From contig NC_003279.8 in the NCBI RefSeq assembly GCF_000002985.6, positions 12,028,001 through 12,092,000 on the forward strand: DNA of 64,000 bases. The letters run 5' to 3'. Position 1 is the first letter of the stretch, and each line of letters opens with the position of its first letter. Under the pieces are notes generated by a model that saw only the letters and a program-made list of their open reading frames with translations, searched no databases and was not told the DNA's origin. This stretch comes from Caenorhabditis elegans (taxonomy: Eukaryota; Nematoda; Chromadorea; Rhabditida; Rhabditidae). Below are positions 45,932-54,900 of this stretch, one piece after another. Both the position numbers and the translations under genes were made by a program.

Positions 45932-48900
45932 TCACGTTTTATCAAAATCCACATTGGTAAAGATTCTCAACAGAAACTCGCCGTCCTGGTCCGGATCATA
46001 AGTGCTCGGTACAATCACATAGTGCCCAAGCGGAACAGTGAATCGTATGTTAGCCTCACGAGAATCTTTGAAAAGTTTGGAATCCGCAATGGGCGTCTGT
46101 GATTTGACCATCTCGGGGGTCACTTTCTCATTGGGACCCGGCATTTCGTACACTAGGAGTCCGATTAGGAATAGTTCTAAACCCTTGTACACACAGTGAT
46201 CACGATTTTTTTGAAAAAGAGCGGCAATTATTGTGCATTTGTGGTTGGAGTCGTATGAGTCGGTGGCGCGGAAGTGTATCTCATACTGTAGATTAGTGCA
46301 GAAGGTGTCGTGGTCATCGCATCCCCCGGCAGTACCTATCCGGGAACTCCATTCTCCCTCAAATGATGCTTGGATCCATTGCTGGCTCTGATGCTCCATG
46401 ACCTGGAAGAAATTTATTTTAAATATCACATTAAAATTCCACAATTTTCACAACGTTTTTTCTTATCAAAAAATCCCTCTTAGAGCCAGATCAAATCAGA
46501 GCTACCTTGGACAAAATTTGTTTTCTTTTACAAAAGTTTTAAAGTATTTTTCTAACTTTTGGCATGCATTCGGCGAATATCCTTTAATTTTCAAACGCGC
46601 TCCATTGCAAAAATAAGCTATATTTTAGTCTTAGGACAAAGTTCTGTAGCCAATTCAACTTTCTGGCTGAAACATGCAAATTTTCTTATTTCAGAAACTC
46701 ACCTTCACCTCTGTCATCTTCTCGACTTCATGCATCGTATCAGCCGACAGATTACAGCAGTACACATCTGTGAACTCTACCATGAAGTCTTTCAAGGACA
46801 TCCAGAACTCTCCGTCTTCCTTGATTCGAAAACTCTCTCGTTTCTCCTTATCCAAGCCAAACCACCTATGGGATCTATAGCAAAAATCCCCTTTCCACTT
46901 GACTTTACCCCACGGGCTTCGGATACGGATCAACGGCGCTTTTTCCTGAAAAATTTTTACCGATGATTATTGAACATGACCCCTTGAAGTTTGATCTCGA
47001 AAAACCGCGGAATAACAGTCCATAATTCGATCCAATATCGAGTTTTTATTAGTTAGTTTTCGAAGGGGCGTAACTCTTAAAAAAGTACAAAGCTTACAAG
47101 GGAAGTTTTTACACCAGACACCGGACATCAAGATGACAATATTGCCATCCGGTAATAGAAGGTTCTGGCTATATCCTCCGAAAAATCCAGCTGCTAATCA
47201 CCGGGGAGCTCCGAGATATTTTGGTTCAAAATTTTAGCACTGATTTCAGTTGATTTTGGTCCCTTCACCATTGTTTTACAATGTAGGACACCGTTGTGAC
47301 CCTTGTTGACCAGGTCAAAATAGTCCACAGCAACGGCGAAGCTGCAAAACCGTCGATTTGTGGCCGAGTCGGTTGCAGCGTTGACTGCACAGGTAAAGCG
47401 CCAAGTGTGAAAAATGGGTGAATAGTGGGTGAAGGGGCGCTGGCGGGTGAACGATGGGGGAAAAATGGGCGAAGGACCGCAAAAAGACGAAGCAATGGGT
47501 GAATAAATTGACCAATCCGAAAATCAAAAAAGAAGTAAAAAAGGAGTATAGCAAAGCATTTCCGAAGTATTCATGCATAACTAGTATACGTGTTTATGGA
47601 AGTGTTTATTGTTAACAATGTTACAATCAATTGATTGTTGTAATGTTCACTTCATTTCCGAACATCTACCATTAGAGTCATTTGTTGTTGAATAATGTGA
47701 AAAACATTTTGTTACTTTTTTAAGGGTTTATATTTATAGAAAAAATACCAATTTGTTATTTCCCACAAGTTTGGACATTCATATTACATTCTCAGTCGAA
47801 CAATCACCTATATAAGAGTTGATTGAGCATATAGACGTCTTACTTTAAAAGACTCATAACTCTGTTGGCATTTGAATTAATAAAATGTGGCCAACTGAAA
47901 AGTTGTTGACAATAATGTGAAAAACATTTTGTTAGTTGGTAACTTTTTGTTATCTTTAGTGACTGCGGAGATGTGGGCTTCAAAAGATAACCAAAATATT
48001 CTACATCTGTGCTCAACTATGTCTCAGTTCTCGATAAAGATGAAGAAATAATTACAACAATATAAATGTTTATTGCTTCAAGCTTGACAATGTTGTAGTT
48101 GATGACTTTTTGATATCTCGTCTCTAGAAATAGATACAACCGTTTTAAGACAGGAGCTTTTATTGTTCAGAGCTCCAAGGAATGTCGGTTTCAGTGATCG
48201 AGAGCACCGAACTTGTCAAGAAAATGCATAGAACCAACAAAGTTAACATATTTCTACAATATCTGATAAATATTTTAAAATATTAAAAAAAAAATTTTTT
48301 GATTTTTTCGAAACGAAAATCTTACAAAATTTTTCAAAATTTTTCTCAAAATTTTTTTTTTGGAAACTTTTTATGATATGATTAGATTATAGAAAAATGC
48401 AATGTTTGTAATTATTTCTAGTTTGTATGTTCTGAACACGATTTCGGACGAAAACCTGAGGTGTAGTAGAACAACTAAGTTCAAAAAACGCGTTCACTTT
48501 GGATGCGTATATCTCCGTGGAAAAATTTTTGATTTCAAAGTGATCAACTACAAAGTTGTTTATCTTAATCTGAAGTACAACTTTGTAGTTTATTGTTTCT
48601 TGTCAAAAAAATTGTTGGTCGAGATAAAGTTGTGTTCATTTTGGCAACTTCATGCTTGAATTTTCTTCTTCTTTTTCTATTCCTGTCTCAATCAACAATT
48701 TTTTTGACAAGAAACAATAAACTACAAAGTTGTACTTCAGATTAAGATAAACAACTTTGTAGTTGATCACTTTGCCATCAAAAATTTTTCCACGGAGATA
48801 TACGCATCCAAAGTGAACGCGTTTTTTGAACTTAGTTGTTCTACTACACCTCAGGTTTTCGTCCGAAATCGTGTTCAGAACATACAAACTAGAAATAATT

Positions 48901-51900
48901 ACAAACATTGCATTTTTCTATAACATCTAATCATATTATAAAAAGTTTCCAAAAAAAAATTTGAAAAACATTTTGAAAAATTTTGTAAATTTTGTAAAAA
49001 TTTTGTAATTTTTTTTTCAAAAATTATCAAATTTTTATCAGGTATTGTAGAAATATGTTGAATTGTTCGTTTCTATAAGTTTTCTTGCTAAGGTCGGTGC
49101 TTTCGATAAGTCAAACCGACATTCCTTGGAGCTCTGAAAATTAAAACCTCCTGTATTAAAATGGATGTATCTAATTCTAGAGGCAAGATATCAAAAAGTC
49201 ATCAACTACAACGTTGTTAAGTTTAAAACAATAAACATATTGATAGTTGTAAGTATCTCTTCATCTTTATCGAGAACTGAGATATATAAAGAGATATATT
49301 AAGTACAGATCTAGAATATTTTGGTCTTCTTTTGAGGCTCATATCTCCACTGTCACTGAAGATAACTAAAAGGTACCAACTAACAAAATGTTTTTCACAT
49401 TATTGTAAACAACTTTCCTGTTGATGAAAATTTTGTATTCTACGTGTCAAAGAAGCTAGAAGCTCTCAAACCTTCTTGGTTCCTTTGATCCAACTTTACA
49501 TTTTCTACCATTTCTTGGCAGAACATTCAGTGTGAACTCTCACACTAGTAGAACATATCCAACCTGTTACTTTCAATGTTTCCAACATGTTTTCAAAATT
49601 TTTTTCAACAATTTTTTTTCAACAATTTTCATCATAAGGGGGGATCAAAATAAAATCTTGTAGATTTTAACTTCATGATCAAAATAATGATTTATCAAAT
49701 TGGATGAAGACGGGCCATATTTAGAATTTTTATCGAAATTTCATTCGAAACTCTTAAAGTTGAAACGGAAATATCTTACTTAGTACTATTCGATCTATTT
49801 TTCAGCGTTTCAATACGTTTTTTAACACCAATAAATCATTTCAATTCAACGCTTACTCTCATTATGAGTTTCATAGCAACGACACTCCGAAATAACCCTA
49901 GCGCGCCCTCTTTAGCGAAAATTTTATTCAATTTTTTTTGCATTTTTTGCAATTTTTCTCGTTTTTTTCACGATTACCGCTTATTTTGCGTGATTTTGTG
50001 AGCTTTCCGCACAACATATTTTTCTTTTTCACATTTTTCATAATTTGCAGATAAAAATCGAGAAAATCAACGAAAAGGATCCTAAAAAAACGACGGAATA
50101 GGAAAAAGATGCCAAAAATCAGGTATTTTCAGAAATATTGAGAAACTCTGCGTCTATTCTTCTGTTAACTAATTATAATTGGTTTCTTATTCGAAAAATA
50201 TAAATTTTTGTCACGAAAAAAGCGAGAAATAATCTTCGAATTCAGATATTTCGTCCCGACGCAACTTCGCCGGCTTCGACGAGGAATCCTGCAACGAGGG
50301 ACACGATTATGAGCTGTTAAAGTGAGTTTTAAAGTTTTAAAATGTATTCTCCCGAAAGAAAAACCGTCAAACTAACTCTAAAGCATGATAATTTTTACAG
50401 GAGTGTCGCCGGCACCGACTCCGAACGAGAAAAGCTCCGACGACCGCAAACGAGAGCCGAAGGAATCCGGAAAGCGAAGGTAATATTTTATTTTCAAATA
50501 TCGATACTTGTTTCTAACGAGCGAAAATTTATAATGTAATGTAATAATGATTAATCTTCTTTATTAAACTTCTTTAAAATTAATCATTTGAATTTTTCAG
50601 AAAATGGATCGATAAAATCGCTTACTGGAGGAAGACAAAAGGAAGAAAAGCGGAAACGAGTCAATTGCCGATGACACCAGAGGACGATTCATCGAAATCA
50701 TCAAAAGATGAAATAAATTATTTTGTTTTTTTTTTCGATTTAAAATAAATGATAATACTATAATATACTCGTTTTATGAATATTATTCTTCACTGAAAAG
50801 CAAAAGGAGGGGAATGGAAACGATAGCCTTCACCCATCGCTCACCCATCGCTCACCCATTAGCGAGCCGCTAACATGCGAACGGCGGCCCACCGGTGTGC
50901 GCGCTGTTCGTGTGTCGGCGGTTCCCCCCTCGCCTATATGCGGTCCACCGGTGGGCCGCCGCTCGCACTTGGCGCTTTACCTGTGTGCCGTTATTTACGC
51001 TGTGGTTCGGATCCTGCCCACGCCAAAGCTTTTTTATTTTTTGCAAAACTCGGGCTCCATAACACCCCGAAAAACAGTTTTTGAAGATTTAAAAACATGT
51101 TACACCTCTTTTCGATGTCCCAGAAGTGCGCTGGAAACTTTATAAAAATTTTAATTTTTTTGAAAATTTTCAATTTTTCTCCTTGGAAAAATTTGGTCCA
51201 AAACTTTTTTCCGAAATTTTTTTGAAAACGTATCAAATCTTGTAGAGCATCATCAATTTGTTATTTTTCATTGTTTTCATTGTCCAGATCCTTATTTCTG
51301 ATGCTTTATTGATATGTTTTACCATTTCAATGTTTGCAAAACATCTTGTCTTTGAGGCTATGCAGCTTCGCCGAAAAAAATCTTACAAAAAAGTGATCAA
51401 CTGAGAAGTTGTAGATTTTAACTTCATCTATAACTTTTCAGTTGAACACTTTTTCTGAAAAAATTTGGTTGCCGAGATATAGACTTTATACTTTCTAGAT
51501 CATACCAAAAATGAGCATTTCTATTCAACAGTTTCCAGCTTGACAACCAAATTTTTTCAGAAAAAGTGTTCAACTGAAAAGTTATAGATGAAGTTAAAAT
51601 CTACAACTTCTCAGTTGATCACTTTTTTGTAAGATTTTTTTCGGCGAAGCTGCATAGCCTCAAAGACAAGATGTTTTGCAAACATTGAAATGGTAAAACA
51701 TATCAATAAAGCATCAGAAATAAGGATCTGGACAATGAAAACAATGAAAAATAACAAATTGATGATGCTCTACAAGATTTGATACGTTTTCAAAAAATTT
51801 TCGGAAAAAAGTTTTGGACCAAATTTTTCCAAGGAGAAAAATTGAAAATTTTCAAAAAAATTAAAATTTTTATAAAGTTTCCAGCGCACTTCTGGGACAT

Positions 51901-54900
51901 CGAAAAGTGGTGTAACATGTTTTTAAATCTTCAAAAACTGTTTTTCGGGGTGTTATGGAGCCCGAGTTTTGCAAAAAATAAAAAAGTTTTGGCGTGGGCA
52001 GGATCCGAACCACAGCGTAAATAACAGCAGTCAACGCTGCAACCGACTCGGCCACAAATCGACGGTTTTGCAGCTTCGCCGTTGCTGTGGACTATTTTGA
52101 CCTGGTCAACAAGGGTCACAACGGTGTCCTACATTGTAAAACAATGGTGAAGGGACCAAAATCAACTGAAACCAGTGCTAAAATTTTGAACCAAAATATC
52201 TCGGAGCTCCCCGGTGATTAGCAGCTGGATTTTTCGGAGGATATAGCCAGAACCTTCTATTATCGGATGGCAATATTGTCATCTTGATGTCCGGTGTCTG
52301 GTGTAAAAACTTCCCTTGTTAGCAAAAAAGACTCAACTTAGAAACTGAAGTTTAACTTTGGTTACACATCACCTACCCATTCAGTTTCCATCAAATTGAC
52401 TCCGGTAATACAGTAGCCGTATCCTTTGATTAGTCCATTCTTCTGCCGAACCCCCTTCTCATTGACATCAATATTTAAACACACAATGAGTGATCCCATC
52501 TGCACTCCCCTCATTATCATCGCCAGAACCGCCATCTCGTCAGCCATAAAAATATCGAACCATTGAGTCAGACCTCCTGTGAAGCTTGCTGAAGCTTGCC
52601 AAAGAGCTTGCTCTGTGTAGGGGTCATTCAGGTGCTCATAGGTGCCAAGGAGCCTAAAACGTAGAGCAGCATTACAATAACAGTTAAGAATCCGGAAGCA
52701 ATTTTCTATTTCAAAATTTTTAAGGGCAATTACAAAAAAAAACCGCACTGAATTCAACTAACTGTAAAATAGAATACTGTGACATCTTAAAACTGTCTGA
52801 TAAAGTAAAAAAAGAACGGCAGCTCAACTTTTGGTTTAAAGAAGTATATAATGAATTGTGACGCTATGGAAAACTTAAGAAAAATATTTTGCTAATTATA
52901 ATGTTTTGGAAAAAAACAGAGCCGACCTGGATATGGGAGACCAAAGTTTCTTATGTTTTGCGTTTTAATTTCTAAGAGCTTATATCTTGATTTGGTTTAA
53001 AACAATATATAGCATCGCTATTCAACTAAAACCGGTCCAAAACCACCGAATTTCATAATGAGACTTCACAAAAAATTTCCAAAAATTGTTTATGGCCGGT
53101 CAAAATTTCGAAAAAAGAGCCAAATTTTGCTAAAATCTGAAATTTCGCACACTCTTTTTTGGTGCAGCCGCTGGATTTTAGTTTTTCTGAAATTATCACC
53201 TTTTAATCCTTATTTTGGTAATTTATCTTGCGGAAATTCGTTGATTGAGACAAATTTTAGGCTAACAGGCATCCAAAAATGAACAAAATTGGATGCCTAT
53301 CGGCCTAAAAGTTATCTCAATCAACGATTTTCCGCAAGATAAATTACCAAAATAAGGATTAAAGGGTGATAACTTCAGAAAAACTAAAGTCCAGCGGCTG
53401 CGACAAAGAAAAGTGTGCGAAATTTCAGATTTTAGCAAAATGTGGCTCTTTTTTTTCGAAATTTTGTTCGGTCATAAAAAAATTTTCGAAATTTTTTTGT
53501 GAAGTCTCATTATGAAATTCGGTGGTTTTGGACCAGTTTTAGGTTATTTAAGCAAAATACCCACAAACTCTACTCCCCCTTTAAATAAGAAGTATTTTTT
53601 TAGTAAACATTTCGTGCTAAAAAAAGTCATTACTCACTTGGCATAGGCCTTCTCCAACAACGGGCCCCAAAATTCACTTCCGCCCGGCGAACTCATGTAG
53701 CAGAGCGTTCCATTCACCGTCGGCAGTCGATCATCAATCACAACATCCACCCATTCTCCATATCTCCAAAACTGGAAATGGAAGATTCCAGCGTACTTCT
53801 CCGTGAATGACTGATCAGGTGGAACTACACGATAAAAGAGCTCATCTCGAAGTGACAAGTTGGCAGCGCCGGATAAGAACCAACGGTTTTCAAGTCGTCC
53901 TAGCTTAACGTCAAAATGAGTTTTGTCACTGCCAATGAGTCGGGGGTTAGCGAACAGTTCTCCGGGACGTTTCCAAACAATATGGTCCTTTGGACGCACT
54001 TTGACGTAGATTGACGAGTTGTTGGCTGGAAATGAGCACGTAGACTTTTTTTGACTTTTTTTGTTGGTTAAATTAACTATGATTTGTACTGTTTTCTCAC
54101 CTGGAAACTGCGGATCCTCGAACAACCGCTTCTCATCTAAACATTTTTGACGTTCTTCGTGAAAATAAATGGGTTGACAACTCAAAGGCACATACACGTG
54201 ACATTCTCTTTTGAATTTTCCGCTGACAATATTATCCAGCACAATCTTTCCGATACTACTCAACGAATTGGTTTCGCCGCCCATGTTGAACATCTCGTTT
54301 CCAGCTAAAGCTCCGTTAATACCTCCAGTTTCAGAATTGACGGCAACAAAATCATGTGAGTTCTTGGAAATCAGATCACCGGCGAGTGATTCGAGCTCTC
54401 TGGACGAGAAAATGTTCGTCAGGCCACGTCCGACAGAGTCGCGAGGGATCATTGAGCTGAGCTGGTCGAACAGTTTGCCCGCGACGTCTCCGCAGTCGTC
54501 ACCAACGAATTCTGAAAAATTTAACAAAAAATCAATAAAGTTTTCAAAAACCAAAAAAAAACCAATGAAATGCATTTAGAAATTATTTCGTTTTTTACTG
54601 TTAAGTTTACCAAAATTCTTCGCAAAAATCAATCATTTCTTGAAAATCAATAATTTTCACAAAAAATCAAAAAACTTTGACAAAAATCAATGACCAATCT
54701 TCCAAAAAATTAATCTATAGGTATTCCACAAACTCTTTAAAAAACCAAAAAATTTATCCCGAAACAATTTCCAAAAAATCAATGAATTCACTTAAAAATC
54801 GATAATTGCCTGAATTTACCTTTAAGAATCTCTGAAAAATTGTAAGCATGTATTTTCTCGTCGTGTTCAGAGATTGAGGAGAAGCTGGTGCGAGCTATTT

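Follow-up and report, generated by a model that had tools for sequence, protein, structure and literature searches.

Nested transposons in a calpain intron

The stretch of DNA considered here, hereafter the window, covers 64,000 nucleotides of chromosome I of the nematode Caenorhabditis elegans (I:12,028,001-12,092,000), and genome searches were made on the C. elegans assembly of 7 contigs and 100,286,401 bases. As a first reading made from the letters of the window alone (the sequence-only reading) had proposed, an intron of a calpain gene, bordered on both sides by Pfam calpain exons all on the minus strand, accommodates two nested transposable elements, namely (i) an outer palindromic element with Tc5-like ends, and (ii) an inner element with terminal inverted repeats (TIRs), inserted into the left arm of the older outer element (Table 1). 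That reading was supported as regards the nesting, the order of events and the CACTA-like class, but it missed the target of the inner element and of its relatives, i.e., most paired copies of the family are inserted in transfer RNA (tRNA) genes or in sequences resembling them, a preference rarely seen in transposons of this kind.

The TIR of the inner element, CACAGGTAAAGCGCCAAGTG, is perfect over 20 bp with CAC..GTG termini and is matched twice in the window and never in 100 shuffles, while the motif ATGGGTGA has 5 matches in the window against 1.38 expected (5 being reached in 1 of 100 shuffles), all of them at most 160 bp from the ends of the inner element. The TG duplication and the subterminal repeats anticipated at both ends were found as well, and the element's own palindrome resolves into three arm pairs (47865-48016/49299-49450, 48018-48313/48991-49286, and 48387-48624/48686-48923). 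The repeat family of this palindrome also occurs away from the CACAGG ends of the genome.

Once joined and deprived of one TG, the flanks of the inner element align without any gap to the intact right arm of the outer element (98.3% over 118 bp), and the two arms of a shorter outer-element copy, V:2327813-2329084, match them at 94.8% and 95.7% over 115 bp, each alignment having a single gap that lies off the junction. As the intact right arm and the chromosome V copy show the empty site, the outer element is the older of the two and the inner element was inserted into it; the nesting is borne out by the TIRs, the TG duplications and the joined-flank alignment, and the chromosome V copy agrees with the order of events first read from the right arm. 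On the intact right arm, as on the two arms of the chromosome V copy, an intact box A (TGGCCGAGTCG) is followed at tRNA spacing by an intact box B (GGTTCGGATCC). The window insertion separates the two boxes of the left arm, following roughly nucleotide 34 (numbered with the start of box A as tRNA nucleotide 8). A genome search for a parent tRNA gene of this sequence matched copies of the outer element only, and the target in the window appears to be a tRNA-like sequence, not a tRNA gene.

Target sites of the inner-element family

The exact 20-bp TIR has 10 occurrences in the genome and one more with two mismatches, and its reversed control has none; the 14-bp core CACAGGTAAAGCGC has 42 exact matches and 87 when one mismatch is allowed, a condition under which its reversed control gives 11. 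These 87 matches comprise 29 single ends as well as 29 inverted pairs, the members of a pair lying 0.5-6.7 kb apart; some of the single ends are probably chance matches to the core, diluting the single-end counts. The genome-wide TIR search and flank comparison suggested from the sequence alone have revealed other copies with these ends: 23 pairs have target duplications of 2 bp, 4 have 3 bp and 2 have no more than 1 bp, the duplicated sequence differing from site to site. Subfamilies have the core in common and diverge just inside it; the left end of one of the 29 pairs reads AACAGG, an exception to CAC.

The program ARAGORN was run on the joined flanks of all 29 pairs, a tRNA being counted if it spanned the junction, and measured background windows served as the denominator in place of a genome-wide tRNA count. 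With default settings, a tRNA lies across the junction in 11 of the 29 joined sites compared to 4 of 6000 random windows of 258 bases, the calls being Asn, Ala, Arg, Val, Thr, Ile, Leu, Gly, Pro, Phe, and one less plausible Val-like. With a rule demanding a combined box A and box B score of at least 17 spanning the junction, 21 of the 29 sites are retained, compared to 4/6000 random windows and 1/1740 dinucleotide shuffles. Either default ARAGORN or this box rule, in its wider form, is satisfied by 22/29 paired sites. Insertions concentrate in the D arm, 14 of the 21 box-bearing sites being hit after a tRNA nucleotide between 8 and 22, and no orientation bias relative to the tRNA is evident in these small numbers. 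Among the single ends, a one-box score of at least 9 is reached by 7/29 versus 49/4000 windows; six of these ends had been looked at before the targeting was suspected and hold 2 of the 7, and the 23 whose flanks were then unseen provide the other 5. When 18 unjoined flank loci were submitted to Rfam, a tRNA at or above the gathering threshold was returned for 3 (L057, L060, and L070). Moreover, members of different subfamilies occupy the same nucleotide of the same tRNA-like repeat (IV:16261591 and V:15107529) or lie two bases apart in the same tRNA-like repeat (V:13524744 and X:2166262), which looks like independent targeting.

Regarding the surroundings of individual copies, III:6066275 and II:2015499 have the same flank of about 75 bases running into a tRNA 5' half, either because the region upstream of a tRNA family is a hot spot or because the segment was duplicated. 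Besides, III:1011607, IV:12928553, IV:12733538, and V:19092925 adjoin near-identical non-tRNA sequence (gaggatgagggaagc..tagctcctcggtgtgtgtg).

Passenger sequences

The cassette carried by the inner element had been described as a block of splice-bounded segments taken from the host. The splice signals of segments A-C are kept in 6/6 copies compared, segment D is contained in 3 of the 6 aligned stretches, and five other copies, belonging to two terminal subfamilies, have the same cassette at 97.3-98.6%. Variation affects 9/226 positions in segments A-C versus 7/324 in the introns (segment limits being off by 1-2 bases), which gives no sign of selection on the exons. The search for a donor gene failed, as neither DNA searches nor protein searches of the genome (best match outside the family in the latter, E=0.79) yielded one and the cassette had no Pfam match, its significant matches being to sister copies only.

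The packing of host sequence proposed in the sequence-only reading thus lacks a donor in the window cassette but holds for the family, where fragments of two host genes are found, with their introns kept in the copies aligned. Firstly, the minus strand of a 6.7-kb copy, II:2018651-2025348 (L118), encodes a cyclin N-terminal domain (Pfam E=1e-12; best PDB matches to cyclin A2), and by protein matches a cyclin A-like fragment lies inside 12 of the 29 paired elements. This count was drawn from 51 rows, leaving out the host locus on chromosome III, V:3559114-3559355 (outside any pair), X:8148179 (weak, near a single end), I:6782723 (cyclin-like), and rows matching only query residues 86-144. Compared with the host locus III:9107690-9108140, presumably cya-1, the DNA of the L118 fragment is 80% identical over 424 columns and that of the fragment at V:6715570-6715980 is 80% identical over 446 columns, intron included in both cases; since the intron is kept, genomic DNA was captured. 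Secondly, the copy IV:8663514 contains a fragment that matches II:9715150-9715595 (which we take to be wee-1.3) along its intron as well, with 83.6% identity over 446 columns; its frame resembles a Myt1/Wee1-type kinase, with a Pfam kinase match below the cut-off (E=0.024) and weak best PDB matches to Myt1 (E=0.077). Both traceable passengers are CDK1 regulators, which, with two cases, may be a coincidence. Functional passenger proteins are unlikely in most copies, exon 2 of the cyclin being internally deleted in both aligned copies and stops being present in several.

The window cassette itself could, with a likelihood approaching that of capture, be a degenerate gene native to the transposon instead of a captured host gene. 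Its presence in two terminal subfamilies at such high identity and its failure to match any donor or Pfam domain are in keeping with native origin; on the other side, in IV:8663514 the kinase-gene fragment takes the place of the cassette, with a related upstream segment before it and the cassette's last exon after it, and in L118 it is the cyclin fragment that stands downstream of the related upstream segment. Genomic fragments of host genes, introns included, between TIRs are also what the available excerpts of PMC8277862 describe for the Pack-CACTA elements of plants and for animal Pack-type TIR elements, from which the present family differs by a repeatedly used passenger slot and by traceable passengers that are both CDK regulators.

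Candidate transposase and class of the family

Besides its cyclin fragment, L118 harbours a multi-exon gene on the plus strand, whose candidate transposase (487 residues) was assembled from eight exons with splice signals picked by eye. It comprises the stretches NTDG, MDASRK followed by C-x2-C, and DGLHLIFEG, and has relatives at I:2651063-2651588, II:2277311-2278715 (L119), and IV:5962025. The C-x2-C is present in both L118 and L119, and an H-x4-H, read by eye across an exon junction (KLH-FLVD-H), in L119 only. The L119 locus (II:2276301-2279700), a transposase-like multi-exon gene with no CACAGG ends nearby, is possibly a decayed or host-adopted transposase. As for L117 (X:2166262-2172608), a 6.3-kb member of the family, its interior frames resemble by eye the remnants of a reverse transcriptase of long interspersed nuclear elements (LINE); as these long frames look broken, it was rejected as an autonomous copy.

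The CMC(T) clade (EnSpm/CACTA, Mirage, Chapaev, Transib) is characterised, in the excerpts of PMC12730594 at hand, by ends that are mostly CA..TG, target duplications of 2-5 bp, and the motifs C(2)C and H(3-4)H. The family conforms to this in its CA..TG termini with TIRs (CAC..GTG, as in EnSpm), and its target duplications, nearly all within the 2-5-bp range (29 pairs, mostly 2 bp), the subterminal repeats of the window copy being a further similarity; the C(2)C of the candidate protein and the H(4)H of its relative may correspond to the two motifs. The CACTA-like class advanced from the sequence alone gains support from the 29 end pairs, their duplications and the candidate transposase of the long relative, and the family would best be called CMC-like, rather than firmly CMC. 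A possible counterpart of the family is Repbase MIRAGE1, named in the excerpt of PMC5850821 among the families with the most insertions in wild C. elegans.

Recognition of the target

The inner element is very probably a non-autonomous copy of a CMC-like cut-and-paste family whose transposase directs integration into tRNA or tRNA-like sequences bearing boxes A and B. The transposase would be supplied in trans and would bring the element to DNA marked by these boxes of RNA polymerase III (Pol III), with the D arm as the main site of entry; the window copy would have hit in this way the tRNA-like sequence in an arm of the older Tc5-like palindromic element within the calpain intron. The feature recognised could be the DNA of box A and box B or the transcription factor TFIIIC bound to it; alternatively, the transposase may read box A DNA directly or recognise a hairpin. 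About half of the C. elegans TFIIIC sites are without Pol III and have both boxes, and 214/504 of such sites overlap CeRep3 repeats, suspected to be tRNA pseudogenes (PMC6950938, as excerpted). TFIIIC, as a single factor, could thus account for insertions into real tRNA genes and into tRNA-like repeats; the CeRep3 and extra-TFIIIC sites of that excerpt resemble the sites hit by several insertions here in being tRNA-like repeats equipped with both boxes, the difference being that they constitute a class of target and not a transposon.

Several points weigh against this reading of the family. The window site is tRNA-like by its boxes and by relaxed ARAGORN only, a setting that is weak evidence (18/29 sites but 386/6000 windows), and Rfam gives no tRNA at the window site (E<=1) nor in the chromosome V copy. 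The box rule, built on consensus boxes A and B, was applied after the sites had been seen; moreover, its span was widened by 10 bases (from 15 to 25 before box A) after one site had been seen, the result at the first limit of 15 bases before box A being 20/29 versus 3/3000. The background windows were drawn from 147 kb and overlap one another. Seven of the 29 sites satisfy neither default ARAGORN nor the box rule, i.e., I:12752316, II:2015499, II:2018651, IV:1462948, IV:8663514, V:6712425, and V:12373432 (among these uncounted sites, a perfect box A precedes II:2018651, and IV:1462948 and V:12373432 score 16). Finally, the L118 candidate protein has no Pfam transposase domain, its third catalytic residue (E) was not found, and its candidate first and second D were read by eye only, the second being an alanine in L119; with respect to the excerpted description of the CMC(T) clade, the missing Pfam match and last catalytic residue are differences, as is the targeting of tRNA genes.

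That the transposase recognises hairpin- or cruciform-forming DNA, which tRNA genes and palindromes both provide, instead of Pol III boxes, is improbable. The target in the window does lie within a palindromic element and tRNA genes do encode hairpins, but the insertion is 291 bp inside the outer end, away from the centre of the palindrome and between box A and box B, and the fact that 14 of the 21 box-bearing sites share a single region of the tRNA (after nucleotides 8-22) argues likewise against it. Considerably less probable is an ordinary CACTA/Mirage-type element without any aiming, found in tRNA sites by chance or because these are the sole survivors of selection. Such an element would suit the seven sites without a tRNA under either objective rule, the 22/29 single ends below a one-box score of 9 (some of them probably chance core matches) and the small copy numbers, but it is at odds with the excess over background found both by default ARAGORN and by the box rule, and selection is not expected to purge insertions from the large non-coding fraction while sparing tRNA genes. 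Hardly credible is that the family is Dada, the known superfamily of DNA transposons targeting tRNA and small nuclear RNA genes, with which it has in common the insertion into multicopy small RNA genes and several lineages of which likewise have nucleotides 8-13 of the tRNA, within box A, as insertion site (excerpt of PMC8869645), since Dada makes duplications of 6-7 bp (excerpts of PMC3706591 and PMC8869645) versus mostly 2-3 bp here, and Dada-U6/U1 is described there with sub-terminal inverted repeats only versus perfect CAC..GTG TIRs in the window element.

Directed integration by a CMC-like transposase can be set beside what is known of Dada as a system: DNA transposons lie within tRNA genes in both, often in box A, the differences being the 6-7-bp duplications of Dada (according to the same excerpts) and, on the side of the present family, duplications of mostly 2-3 bp, CAC TIRs and the hitting by one family of many tRNA types plus tRNA-like repeats at varying positions. 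Few lineages are known in which DNA transposons integrate in a targeted manner; for eukaryotes, the introduction of PMC8869645 names Pokey, CryptonV, and Dada. No report of tRNA targeting by such a C. elegans family was found among the matches listed in open-licence PMC papers, Repbase Reports lying outside this scope, and the family may already bear a Repbase name. We would only tentatively go as far as a second independent lineage of tRNA-targeting DNA transposons, in which a CMC-type transposase is tethered to TFIIIC on box A/B DNA, both in true tRNA genes and in tRNA-like repeats bound by this factor, and a passenger slot repeatedly takes up genes of CDK1 control (cyclin A, Myt1/Wee1). If true, the best-studied nematode would have a CACTA-like family aimed at tRNA genes, and the habit would have arisen more than once. 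The mechanism is testable, as C. elegans provides TFIIIC chromatin immunoprecipitation (ChIP) data, wild isolates that differ in their transposons and a convenient genetic system, and the family offers disruptions of tRNA genes, an account of nested insertions in tRNA-like repeats and an animal case of repeated gene capture.

Table 1. Features of the nested elements and of the host gene (positions in the window)
Feature	Position	Strand	Remark
Inner element	47388-50985	+	3598 bp; member of the CACAGGTAAA(G/C)CGC family
Left TIR of inner element	47388-47407	+
Right TIR of inner element	50966-50985	-
TG target duplication of inner element, left	47386-47387	+
TG target duplication of inner element, right	50986-50987	+
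Subterminal GGGTGA/GGGCGA repeats, left	47416-47502	+	At 47416, 47427, 47445, 47467, 47497
Subterminal GGGTGA repeats, right	50830-50857	-	Three copies
Palindrome of inner element	47722-49424	.	Also a dispersed repeat family
Box A of tRNA-like target, outer left arm	47361-47371	+	TGGCCGAGTCG; target interrupted by inner element
Box B of the interrupted target	51004-51014	+	GGTTCGGATCC; beyond inner element
Uninterrupted tRNA-like sequence, outer right arm	51991-52062	-	Pre-insertion state; limits approximate
Segment upstream of cassette	49873-49968	+	79% over 96 bp with L118, there upstream of cyclin fragment
Cassette exon-like segment A	50051-50122	+
Cassette exon-like segment B	50246-50321	+
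Cassette exon-like segment C	50401-50479	+
Cassette last exon-like segment D	50601-50749	+	With AATAAA; also after kinase fragment in IV:8663514
Outer palindromic element	47097-52318	.	Tc5-like ends CAAGGGAAG; inverted arms, end search, joined-flank alignment
TTA target duplication of outer element, left	47094-47096	+	Target CTTAG
TTA target duplication of outer element, right	52319-52321	+
Calpain domain III exon, host gene	45935-46447	minus	Pfam Calpain_III
Calpain protease exon, host gene	52365-52757	minus	Pfam Peptidase_C2
Second calpain protease exon, host gene	53637-54575	minus	Pfam Peptidase_C2

The outer palindromic element

Without the inner element, the outer element measures 1622 bp, against 1272 bp for the chromosome V copy (L056), which also has both ends. 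Its inverted arms (47092-47388/52027-52323, 99%, and 50986-51485/51530-52029, 98%) are separated by a loop of 44 bases at 51486-51529, in agreement with arms first judged to meet near 51515. The ends CAAGGGAAG stand at 47097 and 52318; this 9-mer is weak by itself, 2 matches being reached in 7 of 100 shuffles. The flanks read CTTA/CTAA, and the TTA duplication at first considered likely is indeed found on both sides, within CTTAG. In the genome, the search for ends of this type gave 120 matches within one mismatch versus 26 for the reversed pattern, with complementary pairs elsewhere. Rfam returned nothing on the outer element beyond weak microRNA- or snoRNA-like hairpins, below gathering.

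Elements of the Tc5/Tc4 type have CAAGGGAAG ends and a TNA duplication in CTNAG, and Tc4 possesses a palindromic fold-back body. The outer element has such ends and such a duplication together with a fold-back body as in Tc4, and differs from both in that its arms hold tRNA-like sequence. Genomic pairs about 3.2 kb apart with CAAGGGAAGGTTC resemble Tc5, whereas the 1622-bp outer palindrome is too small for a transposase gene of Tc5 size (judged by size, the frames having had no family search). Within L118, the segment 6121-6480 has a Tc5-like end at II:2025111-2025127 and, by eye, tRNA-like sequence similar to the left flank of V:6712425; from this copy, nesting between the inner-element family and the Tc5-like family seems to recur.

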